DNA of 32,187 nucleotides from Clostridiales bacterium (GTDB lineage Bacteria; Bacillota; Clostridia; Christensenellales; UBA1242), in NCBI GenBank assembly GCA_015055535.1, contig SVIA01000012.1, positions 1 to 32,187 of the forward strand, written 5' to 3'. This document shows positions 24,464 to 32,124 of this stretch, piece by piece. The notes beneath the pieces are model-generated. The model searched no databases, was not told where the DNA came from, and worked only from the letters and a program-made list of their open reading frames with translations. The position numbers and the translations under genes are program-made. Positions within the stretch are counted from its first letter, which is position 1, and every line of letters begins with the position of its first letter.

Positions 24464-24510
24464 AAAAAACTTCTAAGTTTAGTCACTGCATTTTGAAACT
24501 AGTGTAATAA
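24464..24510. repeat. Left member of an imperfect inverted repeat pair flanking the 24.5-27.1 kb locus
   Basis: AAAAAACTTCTAAG...TTTGAAACTAGTGTAATAA matches the reverse complement of 27139-27184. Confidence 0.75.
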
Positions 24511-24513
24511 TTA

Positions 24514-24547
24514 AGAGAATTAGAAAAATATCTAGTTCTCTTTTTTC
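24514..24547 (+). terminator. Terminator
   Basis: GAGAATTAGA-AAAATA-TCTAGTTCTCTTTTTT. Confidence 0.75.
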
Positions 24548-24549
24548 TT

Positions 24550-24727
24550 GGCTACTTTATGCCGTGAAAGGTATTTGACAAGAGAAGAAATGAAAACGCA
24601 ATATAAAAAGGCAGAGAAACGAAAAAGGCAAAGCCATAAGCATAATTTTAGTTTCTCTGTCTTAACCAGCAAAAAGAAAAACTCATTTCAGAGACTCTTG
24701 TCAAGTACACCATGGAATAAATTAGCC
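24550..24727. repeat. Long imperfect hairpin (about 178 nt); ncRNA or MITE-like
   Basis: GGCTAcTTTATgCCgTG / CATGGAATAAATTAGCC; TTGACAAGAG (24575-24584) / CTCTTGTCAA (24695-24704); GCAGAGAAAC (24611-24620) / GTTTCTCTGT (24651-24660). Confidence 0.75.
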
Positions 24728-24741
24728 ATTATATATGACAG

Positions 24742-24786
24742 CAAAAAGCGAAAGTGTGTTACGTTCACCTACACTTTCGCTTTTTG
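24742..24786. repeat. Second strong hairpin, 16-bp perfect arms
   Basis: CAAAAAGCGAAAGTGT (24742-24757) / ACACTTTCGCTTTTTG (24771-24786). Confidence 0.85.
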
Positions 24787-24805
24787 TCTGATTTAATTTA
24801 GTTAA

Positions 24806-24868
24806 TAGACGTGTGCTTGTATGTCGGAGCGAAGCGACGACACTTGTATCTAGACAAGCACACGTCTA
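24806..24868. repeat. Third hairpin, 15-bp perfect inverted repeat with nested GC-rich stem
   Basis: TAGACGTGTGCTTGT (24806-24820) / ACAAGCACACGTCTA (24854-24868); inner TGTCG/CGACA around GAGCGAAGCGA. Confidence 0.85.
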
Positions 24869-24951
24869 AGTGCCAATTTTTTTGAAATTTTATATGAAAA
24901 GATTTAAATTTATAAAAAATATGTTATAATGGTTGCTAGGAGAAATACAAA

Positions 24952-27099
24952 ATGATATTATGTGATGTAAATAATTTTAGGTTAACTGACCCAATAAACA
25001 ATGCTGAAAAAAAACACTTTAAACAAGGAATAAACATATCAAAATTAAAACTGCAACATAATAAATTTATTAAAGTGTTGCATAAAAATAATATTAATCC
25101 AATAATTATAAAAAGTGATGCCAATTGCCCAGAACAAGTTTTTGTTAGGGATGTTGCATTTAAGATAGATAAAACTTGGTGTATTTGCAATATGGCAACC
25201 AAAATAAGAGAGCCAGAAATTAATCAATTTATTAATTATTTAAAAGCAAATAACAAAAGTTTTTATCAGTTTAAATCACATATTGAAGGTGGAGATGTTT
25301 TAATTTGGAATCAAACAATTTTTGTTGGTATTAGTAACCGAACCAATATTGATTCAGTTGAAGAAATTACTACTCTATTTCCAAATTATGATGTTGTTCC
25401 AATAAAATTATCACAAAACATATTGCATTTGGATTGTGTGTTAGGAATTATAGATAATACTGCTATTGTTTATAAGAAAGGCATGGATAAGGATTCTTAT
25501 AATATATTAAATAAATTGTTTAATTTGATTGAAATAACATCCGAAGAACAAGAAAATTTGGCAACAAATTTTATTAAATTAGGAGATATTGTTTTTTGTG
25601 AAAAGAGTAATAAGCGGGTAAATTTATTAATTAAAAAACTAGGAGTAACAATTAAAGCGATAGAATTTCAAGAATTTCATAAATTGGGCGGTTCTTTAAG
25701 ATGTTGCTGTTTAGATTATAGTATAAATGATTATGCATACAAAAAGTATCTGCATTATGAAAACAACCAACTATTTTATAAAGATATAAATCTTCATTCT
25801 CTGGTCTCAAAATATGGATGTCCGATAAAAGTGGGATATCCTGAAATGATTAAGGAAAAGATTAGATATTTAAAAAATATTTTTAATAAATATATCAAGA
25901 TTTCAAATTATAATGGAAAGTATTTCTATGCAAACGCAAACAAAGCTTCTTATTATGCCGAAAATGTGATAACTGCGGGTAAATATGCGGATTTTTATGA
26001 AGTATCAAGTGTATCTGATTTGGCTATTGTTGAAAGAGTATTATCGAAAAAGATAGTTGAAAAAAAGAAAATAATTTGCAATGGAATTAAAGACAAAGAG
26101 TATCTTTCATTAATTTATAAACTTGTCGATAAAGGGTATAACATTTTAAACATTATAGACAGCATAGAAGAATTTAAAAACATTCTTAATTATCCTTTTA
26201 AACAGAATATTGAACTTGGAATTAGAGTAAAAGTTGAAGATATTTATAATAATAATCCTAAGTTTGCTAAATATAACAGATTTGGGTTATATCCAAATGA
26301 AGTGGATTATATTATTGAAACGTACAAAAACAACCCAAAATTAAAATTAACTACAATTCATTATCATCAAAGAGGTTCTACATTTAATAAAGAAAATTTT
26401 TTGGAAAATCTTTCTTCTGCCTTGGAACAATATGCAAAAGCTGTAAAAAAAGATAAAAATATTACATACTTTGATATAGGTGGAGGTTGTCCATATGATA
26501 AAATAGGAGAATATGATTATACTCAGTTTGTTAAAATGACGATAGATACAATAAAACAATTATCACTAAAATATAAAATTCCTGAACCTAACATTATACA
26601 GGAAAATGGTAGATATACAGTTTCAGATGCTTGTTTTAATATTTATAAAATAAATTGTGTTAAAAATGATGACAAGTTTTGGTATGTTGTTGATGATAGT
26701 TTTATGACAAGTTTACCTAATACTTGGGCTTTACAAGAAGATTTTCTTATTTTACCAATTAATTTAATTGAAAACAAAATGATACCTGTTAGATTAGCAG
26801 GAAATTCTTGTGATGGAGATGATGTTTATTACTATCAGTCAAAATCAGAGTTTATGCTACCAGAAATAAAAGAAGGACAAACTTTATATATTGGAATTTT
26901 TGGTATGGGCGCATATCAAGAAATTTTGTCTGGCATAGGAGGTATTCATCATTGTTTAAATAGAGAAGAACATGATTTAATTATATATAAAAAGAAAAAT
27001 AAAAATTGTTTTTATTATGTTAGACCAGCTCAAACCCTTAAATATTTATTTAAAAGATTATTATATAAAAATAAAAGAACTATGAAAAAATTTAAATAA
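24952..27099 (+). CDS. Fusion protein: N-terminal DDAH/arginine-deiminase-like amidinohydrolase + C-terminal fold-III PLP (arginine/ornithine/diaminopimelate-type) decarboxylase
   Basis: N-term: QVFVRDVAFKI, HIEGGDVLIW, LHLDCVLGII, GGSLRCCC. C-term: YFYANANKA, DFYEVSSVSDL, RFGLYPNE, TIHYHQRGS, DIGGGCPYD, ENGRYTVSDA, GNSCDGDDVYY, GMGAYQEIL. Confidence 0.8.
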   Translation: MILCDVNNFRLTDPINNAEKKHFKQGINISKLKLQHNKFIKVLHKNNINPIIIKSDANCPEQVFVRDVAFKIDKTWCICNMATKIREPEINQFINYLKANNKSFYQFKSHIEGGDVLIWNQTIFVGISNRTNIDSVEEITTLFPNYDVVPIKLSQNILHLDCVLGIIDNTAIVYKKGMDKDSYNILNKLFNLIEITSEEQENLATNFIKLGDIVFCEKSNKRVNLLIKKLGVTIKAIEFQEFHKLGGSLRCCCLDYSINDYAYKKYLHYENNQLFYKDINLHSLVSKYGCPIKVGYPEMIKEKIRYLKNIFNKYIKISNYNGKYFYANANKASYYAENVITAGKYADFYEVSSVSDLAIVERVLSKKIVEKKKIICNGIKDKEYLSLIYKLVDKGYNILNIIDSIEEFKNILNYPFKQNIELGIRVKVEDIYNNNPKFAKYNRFGLYPNEVDYIIETYKNNPKLKLTTIHYHQRGSTFNKENFLENLSSALEQYAKAVKKDKNITYFDIGGGCPYDKIGEYDYTQFVKMTIDTIKQLSLKYKIPEPNIIQENGRYTVSDACFNIYKINCVKNDDKFWYVVDDSFMTSLPNTWALQEDFLILPINLIENKMIPVRLAGNSCDGDDVYYYQSKSEFMLPEIKEGQTLYIGIFGMGAYQEILSGIGGIHHCLNREEHDLIIYKKKNKNCFYYVRPAQTLKYLFKRLLYKNKRTMKKFK

Positions 27100-27381: not shown

Positions 27382-28239
27382 ATGATTGTTTACATAGAGC
27401 AAATTTTAATAGACAATTTTATAATTAATTTTTTTATACTATTATCGCTTCAAAGCATTTTTAAAGTAAAACTAAAAAAGTTAAATTTAGTATTATCTAG
27501 TTTGCTTGGAAGTATAGTTGCCGTTATTTTACCAATATTTAATTTCAGTTTTATTTTTAGCAGTATAATTAAAATTTTACTTAGTTTAACTATGGTGGCA
27601 ATTATAAAAAAATATAAAAAAATTAAAGAGTTTTTCCTTTATTATTTATCATTTTTATTTTTAACCTTTATGTTTGGTGGCGCATGTATTTTTCTTCTTA
27701 TGCTGTTCGATTCTAGCTTTAATGTAAACAATTATTACTCTTATAATTTGCCAATAGGGGCAATTGTTTTAATTATTTTCTTTCTATTTGTTATTCTAAA
27801 AAATATTTTTAAAAATATTTATTCACGAAAAACTGTTAACAATTTTGTTTTTAAAATTAAATTGTTTAATAAAAATAAAAGTGATGAACTTTTAGGATTT
27901 TTAGATAGTGGAAATTTTTTAATAGATAGTTTAACAAATAAACCAATTACAATAGTAGATTACAATAGTTTAAAAAACCTTTTAAGTAACATTAGCATAA
28001 CCGATATTTTGTTAAATCGTACTGAGAAACTTAATAGTGAATTTAATAATGTACATATGCAAAATGTGTCTAGTATAAACAAAGGTAATAAAGTTATAGC
28101 GTTAGAAATTGAAAAATTGGTAATATATTTAGAAAACGAAAATAATATAATTATTAATAATGCAATTATTGGACTAACTATAAAAAGTTTTATAAATGAT
28201 CTTGGATATAATGCATTGTTAAATCCGAGTTTGTTTTAG
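27382..28239 (+). CDS. spoIIGA: SpoIIGA-like sigma-E processing peptidase
   Basis: VYIEQILIDNFIINFFILL N-terminus, five or so TMs, LLGFLDSGNFLIDSLTNKPI aspartyl protease-like motif, directly upstream of sigE. Confidence 0.93.
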   Translation: MIVYIEQILIDNFIINFFILLSLQSIFKVKLKKLNLVLSSLLGSIVAVILPIFNFSFIFSSIIKILLSLTMVAIIKKYKKIKEFFLYYLSFLFLTFMFGGACIFLLMLFDSSFNVNNYYSYNLPIGAIVLIIFFLFVILKNIFKNIYSRKTVNNFVFKIKLFNKNKSDELLGFLDSGNFLIDSLTNKPITIVDYNSLKNLLSNISITDILLNRTEKLNSEFNNVHMQNVSSINKGNKVIALEIEKLVIYLENENNIIINNAIIGLTIKSFINDLGYNALLNPSLF

Positions 28240-28247
28240 GAGTAAAT

Positions 28248-28982
28248 ATGAAAGTTCCATTTTTATTAAAAAAAATATTAAGTAAAATATTTGATTTTTC
28301 TTTAGATAGTGAACTAATTTACTATCTTTGTACTAGTGAGGCACTTCCTTCGCCACTTTCACTTGAGGATGAAGAATTTTATGCCAGAGAACTTTTGTTA
28401 ATAGGTAATGAGTTTGAACAAAGGCGTGAAAATGCAAAAACTAAACTTATTGAACATAATTTAAGACTTGTTGTATACATTTCTAAAAAGTTTGAAAATA
28501 CTGGTGAAAGTATTGAAGATTTAATTTCGGTAGGCTCTATTGGTTTAATTAAAGCTATTAATAATTTTAATATTGATAAAAATATAAAACTTGCAACATT
28601 TGCAAGCCGTTGTATAGAAAATGAAATTTTAATGCATTTAAGAAAAACTGTAAAAATAAAAAACGAAATAAGTTTAGATGAACCACTAAATATAGATAGT
28701 GATGGAAATGAATTAGTTTTAGCTGATGTTATTAGCATGGATAATGATAGTGTTACAAAAAATTTAGAAACTTCTTGTGAACAAAAAATTTTATTAGAAC
28801 TTGTAAACAAATTAAATAAAAGAGAACAAGAAATTATAAATTTAAGATTTGGTTTAAATAATCAAGATGAAAAAACTCAAAAAGAAGTGGCAGATATGCT
28901 TGGAATTAGTCAAAGTTATATTTCTAGAATAGAAAAAAAGATAATTTCTAAATTAAAAAAGGAAATCATAAAAGTTATTTAA
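28248..28982 (+). CDS. sigE: RNA polymerase sporulation sigma factor SigE
   Basis: LPSPLSLEDEEFYARELL, LIEHNLRLVVYISKKFENTGESIEDLISVGSIGLIKAINNF; region 4 HTH. Confidence 0.95.
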   Translation: MKVPFLLKKILSKIFDFSLDSELIYYLCTSEALPSPLSLEDEEFYARELLLIGNEFEQRRENAKTKLIEHNLRLVVYISKKFENTGESIEDLISVGSIGLIKAINNFNIDKNIKLATFASRCIENEILMHLRKTVKIKNEISLDEPLNIDSDGNELVLADVISMDNDSVTKNLETSCEQKILLELVNKLNKREQEIINLRFGLNNQDEKTQKEVADMLGISQSYISRIEKKIISKLKKEIIKVI

Positions 28983-31353: not shown

Positions 31354-32124
31354 ATGGCAAATAAAGTCGAAATTTGTGGGCTTGATACTAGTAAATTACC
31401 AAAGCTTAAGAATAGTGAAATGGATGAACTAATGCTTAAAATTAAGCAGGGCGATGAAAATGCAAAGGAATTATTTGTTAGAGCAAATTTAAGATTAGTG
31501 TTATCGGTTGTTCACAGATTTGGAATGAGAAAAGAAAGTCCGGACGATTTATTTCAGGTGGGTGTAATAGGTTTAATTAAAGCAATTAATAACTTTGATA
31601 CAACTTTAAATGTGCGTTTTTCTACCTATGCGGTTCCGATGATAATAGGAGAAATTCGAAGATTTTTGCGTGATAACAATGCTGTTAGAGTAAGTAGAAG
31701 CATTCGTGATACAGCTTATCAAATTTTACAAAGTAGAGAAAAACTTACATTATTAAACAATGAAGAGCCTAGTTTAGAAGAAATAGCAAAAGATTTAGAT
31801 TTAAAGGTAAGAGAAGTAGCGTTTGCGTTAGATAGTATAACCGAACCTGTTAGTTTATATGACCCAATTTATGCTGATGGAAATGAAACGGTTAGAGTTA
31901 TGGATCAAATTGGCGATAGTAAAAATAATCAAGATGAATGGGTAGAGAACTTTGCACTAAAAGATGCTTTAAAAAAATTAAATAAAAGAGAAAAACAAAT
32001 TTTACTGCTAAGGTATTATCTTGGTAAAACTCAAATGGAAGTTAGTAACGAAGTTGGAATTAGTCAAGCTCAAGTTAGTAGATTAGAAAAAAATGCTATA
32101 GAAAGCATGAGAAAAAATGTTTAA
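31354..32124 (+). CDS. sigG: RNA polymerase sporulation sigma factor SigG
   Basis: NKVEICGLDTSKLPKL N-terminus; LRLVLSVVHRFGMRKESPDDLFQVGVIGLIKAINNFDTTLNVRFSTYAVPMIIGEIRRFLRDNNAVRVSRSIRD. Confidence 0.96.
   Translation: MANKVEICGLDTSKLPKLKNSEMDELMLKIKQGDENAKELFVRANLRLVLSVVHRFGMRKESPDDLFQVGVIGLIKAINNFDTTLNVRFSTYAVPMIIGEIRRFLRDNNAVRVSRSIRDTAYQILQSREKLTLLNNEEPSLEEIAKDLDLKVREVAFALDSITEPVSLYDPIYADGNETVRVMDQIGDSKNNQDEWVENFALKDALKKLNKREKQILLLRYYLGKTQMEVSNEVGISQAQVSRLEKNAIESMRKNV

Follow-up and report, generated by a model that had tools for sequence, protein, structure and literature searches.

What would a single protein with a deiminase-like half and a decarboxylase-like half do in a bacterium with a tiny genome? 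The window analysed here, a whole contig of 32,187 nucleotides, comes from a gut-type bacterium represented by a MAG of 0.94 Mb that is 95% complete. An earlier note, made from the letters of this DNA, had read one gene as a fusion of a deiminase-like domain with a PLP decarboxylase and had proposed a one-polypeptide route from arginine to N-carbamoylputrescine, a polyamine precursor. Several questions are raised by this proposal. Is the fusion real? To which enzyme families do its halves belong? Which substrates would suit them, and would they act in turn? Where would the product go?

The gene is a single open reading frame of 715 aa, free of internal stops, and a deiminase-like and a decarboxylase-like half are joined in one polypeptide, as had been claimed. 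Both domains score above the Pfam gathering thresholds, but the scores against the SpeA, LysA and DDAH models lie under the equivalog cut-offs; thus the fusion is genuine, and no named enzyme family has either half as a canonical member. As judged from alignments, all catalytic residues of the respective families are present in both halves. The gene is laid out as follows.

24903..24930, + strand: promoter-like TTTAAA-16-TATAAT with TG, a consensus match only, of a kind not enriched over shuffles here
24938..24942, + strand: ribosome-binding-like AGGAG, 9 bases 5′ of the ATG, read from the sequence
24952..27099, + strand: fusion gene of 715 aa, apparently a single-gene transcription unit (open reading frame, Pfam and NCBIfam)
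24952..25716, + strand: DDAH/ADI-type guanidine-modifying domain, residues 1-255 (profile matches, alignments)
25717..25737, + strand: short linker, residues 256-262, separating the two domains; similarity to standalone decarboxylases begins around residue 263
25738..27096, + strand: short SpeA-like PLP decarboxylase domain, residues 263-715 (Pfam, NCBIfam, alignment, Foldseek)

The flanking genes are of the housekeeping type: translations read as priA, def, fmt, rlmN and sigma factors, and rsgA, rpe, ligA and others are named by NCBIfam. At 27382-28982 and 31354-32124 of the window, the translations resemble SpoIIGA and two sporulation-type sigma factors, which would not be expected of a genome of 0.94 Mb. 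A dispersed repeat of ~391 bp lies a short way upstream of the fusion gene, at 24480-24870, with two more near-full copies (91% and 84%) and about ten fragments in the genome. It contains two very stable hairpins (z = -7.5) and has no match in Rfam; its last ~60 bp, a long hairpin, recur in other genera of the family and in one other family of the order. This repeat may represent a structured RNA or a mobile element of the non-autonomous kind.

The N-terminal half matches the Pfam families DDAH_eukar (4.8e-22, residues 17-253, 79 bits against a gathering cut-off of 23) and ADI (7.6e-14, residues 60-180, 52 bits against 22.8). On these profiles it is a member of the guanidine-modifying (ADI/DDAH) superfamily. 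The fusion protein does not reach the equivalog models of ArcA (TIGR01078, 50.6 against 489.1 bits) or DDAH (NF045658, NF045659 and NF045660; 60.6, 69.7 and 74.6 against 450, 300 and 340 bits), and no model of agmatine deiminase (AguA, PAD_porph) in Pfam or NCBIfam matches it up to E = 1. Enzymes of this superfamily use a Cys as the nucleophile together with a catalytic His, the Glu of a GGD motif and a guanidinium-binding Asp, and in ADI and DDAH arginines hold the α-carboxylate. An alignment of the N-domain with its nearest clostridial homologues, with DDAH-type proteins and with genuine ArcA sequences of related loci places its putative active-site residues as follows.

25150..25152, + strand: D67 of VFVRD, at the position of the guanidinium-binding Asp of ADI (FTRD) (alignment)
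25207..25209, + strand: R86, first putative α-carboxylate arginine (alignment)
25285..25287, + strand: E112 of IEGGD (alignment)
25339..25341, + strand: R130 of SNRTN, second putative α-carboxylate arginine, equivalent to the Arg of SARTN (DDAH) and SQRTS (ArcA) (alignment)
25426..25434, + strand: H159-L160-D161, catalytic His and Asp; HLD as in ADI, HLK in DDAH (alignment)
25702..25704, + strand: C251, nucleophilic Cys, the first one in RCCC and invariant throughout the N-domain alignment

The N-domain shares its superfamily and catalytic residues with ArcA and DDAH; HLD and RD come from the ADI side, whereas DDAH has HLK and ED, and the overall similarity is to DDAH, but both sets of equivalogs are far out of reach. 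Because the arginines that hold the α-carboxylate in DDAH and ADI appear to be kept, R86 and R130 point to arginine rather than agmatine as the substrate. The closest relatives of the domain are uncharacterised clostridial and Bacillus DDAH-family proteins with 30-37% identity. The clostridial ones (L054-L058) have an HLDC motif, the best four being 30-37% identical to the N-domain, and a DDAH-family protein of Bacillus velezensis shows similar identity. E. coli AstB gave no reliable alignment. The fusion is the only ADI-family gene in its genome. In another small genome of the same family (G006), L004:1483-2340 encodes a standalone ADI-family protein of 285 aa with FTRD, HLD and GGGFRC, and no decarboxylase.

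The C-terminal half had been taken for a decarboxylase of the alanine-racemase (AR) fold. It matches Orn_Arg_deC_N (9.6e-14) and Orn_DAP_Arg_deC (6.9e-7) in Pfam, the spans of the two domains of AR-fold basic amino acid decarboxylases being residues 360-557 and 555-647. The SpeA equivalogs TIGR01273 and PRK05354 are not reached (136 and 145 bits against 624 and 369). A role as LysA was rejected, as the score against TIGR01048 is 98 against 298 bits and the domain lies outside the LysA clade (100/100). The following positions are assigned.

25942..25944, + strand: K331, PLP Schiff-base lysine (alignment with E. coli SpeA and LysA)
26365..26367, + strand: H472 of HYHQRG, position of the PLP-stacking His (alignment)
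26479..26487, + strand: G510-G512, PLP phosphate-binding GGG (alignment)
26602..26604, + strand: E551 of QENGR, position of the pyridine-N Glu (EPGR in LysA) (alignment)
26698..26745, + strand: specificity-helix region SFMTSLPNTWALQEDF, residues 583-598 (family alignment)
26809..26823, + strand: CDGDD, residues 620-624, the C-D motif given to the active site of the partner subunit (alignment)
26914..26916, + strand: Y655 of GAYQE (alignment)

In the alignment, K331, H472, G510-G512, E551, C620-D621, D624 and Y655 have counterparts in E. coli SpeA and LysA; at the position of D621, LysA has Glu. With this motif set complete in the alignment, the C-domain is an AR-fold PLP decarboxylase, and the Pfam matches, the PLP motifs and SpeA structures among the PDB matches all bear out the earlier assignment of the fold. 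The PLP-lysine region is not atypical as had been thought, since YANANK had been compared with YAxKAN in a register shifted by two residues. The family alignment places FYANANKASYY, ungapped, over FLVYPIKVNQH of E. coli SpeA and VVRFAQKACSN of LysA, and therefore K331 is taken as the Schiff-base lysine; sister proteins have NANKAN, YATKAN or YAIKAN with the same lysine. The motifs on which the earlier note had relied, LHLD (H159-D161), GGSLRCCC (catalytic-type C251), SCDGDD (C620-D624) and GAYQEI (Y655), were confirmed, and no catalytic residue was found to be lost in the alignment of either domain.

A predicted model of the full-length protein is modest (mean pLDDT 68.9, pTM 0.55) and poor around residues 201-263, including the catalytic Cys. 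It was built from an alignment in which standalone N-domains mostly align, mixed full-length alignments having misplaced them. In the PDB, Foldseek matches it best to SpeA of C. jejuni and V. vulnificus; the E. coli enzyme is also among the first ten. Because the alignment passes over the interdomain insertion of SpeA (around residues 350-466 of 3n2o), the C-domain is regarded as a short SpeA-like enzyme. It is nearest to SpeA, sharing the fold, the K, H, GGG, E, CD and GAYQE motifs and a P..W specificity helix in which the SpeA-type Trp is kept, but it lacks both the insertion of ~110 aa and the C-terminal extension and falls in a separate clade.

Short "arginine decarboxylases" of Cytophagales (Persicobacter WP_338398940 and Bernardetia WP_338791011; ~466 aa) are 31-33% identical across the whole C-domain, and their specificity helix is nearly the same: SFMTSLPNTWAL of the fusion is close to SFMTTLPDVWAI of the Persicobacter protein, which is annotated as arginine decarboxylase. 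These proteins differ in being unfused and in lacking some motif residues, for example having HFFIN where the fusion has HYHQR; in Persicobacter, agmatinase and speD are ~4-5 kb away. The Asp of GIDQ in SpeA is replaced by Gln in the fusion, by Lys in its sister proteins and by Ser in the Persicobacter enzyme; as this position does not discriminate, substrate readings from the specificity helix alone were dropped. Sister proteins with 57% identity to the C-domain occur in two genomes (G125 and G118) from which an ADI-family protein and OTC are absent, so that citrulline or ornithine made by known routes would be unlikely there and arginine would be the simplest substrate. The relatives and the helix together point to arginine rather than citrulline as the substrate of the C-domain.

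How widespread is this arrangement? A search of 310 genomes of the family gave matches to the fusion protein in nine genera and no second deiminase fusion, and 396 genomes of the order add none. A GTDB contig scan found 16 loci with a related decarboxylase, and standalone genes are present at L034, L035, L042, L043, L046 and L048. In a maximum-likelihood tree, LysA (100/100), SpeA (100/99) and the short enzymes (93/93) form separate clades; the fusion groups with L034 and L035 (100/99), and together they are sister to the arc-operon and other standalone genes (96/91). Placed by this tree, the decarboxylase half is a member of a small clade beside SpeA.

Other members of this clade have other partners. 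Four proteins of 674-700 aa (L036:4350-6374, L038:4305-6377, L040:4284-6386 and L041:4311-6389) resemble the fusion in having an N-terminal partner of similar size, but it is GNAT-like and no deiminase is present. The GNAT assignment derives from an AlphaFold model (pTM 0.71) for which GNAT acetyltransferases rank first in the PDB; by sequence profile, one weak match to a diamine acetyltransferase entry was obtained (E 0.2). An acetylated amine is possibly made in one protein by these fusions. In a protein of 774 aa (L047:534-2858), a decarboxylase of the same clade precedes a C-terminal radical SAM domain (Pfam 4.9e-10); its gene faces a convergent gene whose translation resembles a PEP-utilising enzyme.

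In three Bacilli-type genomes the decarboxylase is a standalone fourth gene in an arcA-OTC-arcC-decarboxylase operon (L037:1906-6296, L039:1846-6308 and L044:1822-6284), directly following the other three with gaps of ~2-10 bases; no arcD was seen within these clusters. All three OTC proteins score above TIGR00658. At L037, ArcA (484 bits) is just below its cut-off of 489 and above that of PRK01388, and ArcC (300 bits) is below TIGR00746 and above PRK12352. A putrescine carbamoyltransferase role of these OTC proteins was rejected (261-274 against 500 bits; the ornithine model passes). Spermine-synthase matches in the relatives fall on proteins that read as RsmD-like and other SAM methyltransferases, not on SpeE. 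The operons therefore link the decarboxylase clade with arginine deimination independently of the fusion.

The fusion probably strips both a nitrogen and a carbon from arginine. From the fusion itself, the two folds, the catalytic residues and the arc link, we tentatively infer a bifunctional arginine-degrading enzyme that would take consecutive steps from L-arginine to N-carbamoylputrescine. The N-terminal domain would hydrolyse the guanidino group at a Cys-His-Glu/Asp site to release ammonia, the C-terminal PLP domain would remove the α-carboxylate as CO2, and the two would act in turn on one carbon skeleton. The intermediate would be citrulline or agmatine depending on the order, the net product of either order being N-carbamoylputrescine. 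Several points stand against this reading. Each domain alone looks suited to L-arginine, which would result in competition rather than hand-over; as both halves alone look arginine-specific, consecutive steps would require a shift in one of them. In addition, no gene using N-carbamoylputrescine and no APC-type antiporter for arginine or polyamines was found in the genome, and the fusion is known from one MAG.

The known consumers of N-carbamoylputrescine are AguB, putrescine transcarbamylase and AguY (PMC12283126). The fusion's genome, at 95% completeness, is devoid of CN_hydrolase (AguB-type nitrilase), OTCase_N (OTC/PTC), arginase/agmatinase and the spermine/spermidine synthase family. The N-carbamoylputrescine amidase sought elsewhere in it was not found: the sole protein with an amidase signature is GatA, encoded inside the window and so named because a GatB-sized gene follows it. 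A search for AA_permease_2 proteins, the family of the APC-type antiporters, found none in this genome. Thus, of the route proposed in the earlier note, the one-polypeptide part is strengthened by two complete-looking domains and by the deiminase-decarboxylase link in three arc operons, but the role as a polyamine precursor is unsupported, because AguB, putrescine transcarbamylase and AguY are absent from this genome. A better fit would be excretion of the product at the end of arginine breakdown, with ammonia and CO2 released, or a simple ammonia-releasing arginine sink.

A more specific form of the consecutive route, which we regard as doubtful, is a dedicated arginine → citrulline → N-carbamoylputrescine enzyme: a bacterial L-citrulline decarboxylase with its own deiminase, whose product would be excreted at the end of a minimal pathway of arginine degradation; the same decarboxylase scaffold would be combined with GNAT and radical SAM domains to give other modified amines. 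Citrulline decarboxylase activity of the fusion is possible; among the Pfam and NCBIfam matches there is no reference family for such an enzyme, and the literature matches are mostly plant reviews.

Alternatively, the halves may work in parallel, the PLP half as an arginine decarboxylase that yields agmatine and the other as an arginine or methylarginine deiminase that yields citrulline, in one alkali-producing arginine-catabolic unit without channelling. Features of arginine-specific enzymes in both halves agree with this, and at the three arc loci ADI and the decarboxylase are accompanied by OTC, so that the decarboxylase need not use citrulline there. However, fusions usually join consecutive steps, and competitors for one substrate would gain little; we consider this arrangement somewhat unlikely. 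It is improbable that the decarboxylase half acts on arginine or another basic amino acid while the deiminase half is only regulatory or has as its substrate some modified or unrelated guanidino compound. This could be in keeping with L054-L058 and the Bacillus "dimethylarginine dimethylaminohydrolase family protein", for which neither an assigned function nor informative neighbours were found, but the catalytic residues are all intact and the deiminase-decarboxylase link recurs in the arc operons.

Still less probable is an N-domain that acts as a dihydrolase (arginine → ornithine) followed by an ornithine decarboxylase, giving putrescine from arginine with no need of a downstream enzyme. ArgZ/AgrE (arginine dihydrolase-ornithine cyclodeaminase) likewise have a guanidine-modifying domain on the N-terminal side of another enzyme of arginine catabolism, the profile matches include ArgZ and AgrE structures, and such a route would account for the absence of N-carbamoylputrescine-consuming genes. 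However, the second domain of the fusion is an unrelated PLP decarboxylase, nearest to SpeA and with the SpeA-type Trp, and the dihydrolase equivalog-domain model NF052232 is far from reached (39 against 450 bits). Moreover, D67 would argue for deiminase over dihydrolase chemistry, as it appears to stand where dihydrolases carry Asn; by alignment offsets, the equivalent residue would be N71. An assembly chimera of two genes is very unlikely, although the fusion is known from one MAG, since the gene lies inside a 32-kb contig with its reading frame unbroken across the junction, G+C is equal in the halves (0.251 and 0.249) with similar codon use, and homology of the C-domain begins exactly where standalone proteins begin, right after the short linker.

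In the openly licensed literature to which the search was limited, no paper on a deiminase-decarboxylase fusion or on a bacterial citrulline decarboxylase gene was found, and among the sequences and papers searched, a guanidine deiminase joined to an AR-fold decarboxylase is a new domain combination of known enzyme families. It adds to the picture of a modular clade of decarboxylases next to SpeA whose members have various partners. If the consecutive catalysis is true, the fusion would provide a one-protein route from arginine to N-carbamoylputrescine, possibly with a bacterial citrulline decarboxylase, and a source of N-carbamoylputrescine that needs neither AguA nor polyamine synthesis. Why does a bacterium of 0.94 Mb keep such an enzyme without any known polyamine pathway? 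The fusion makes this question testable.
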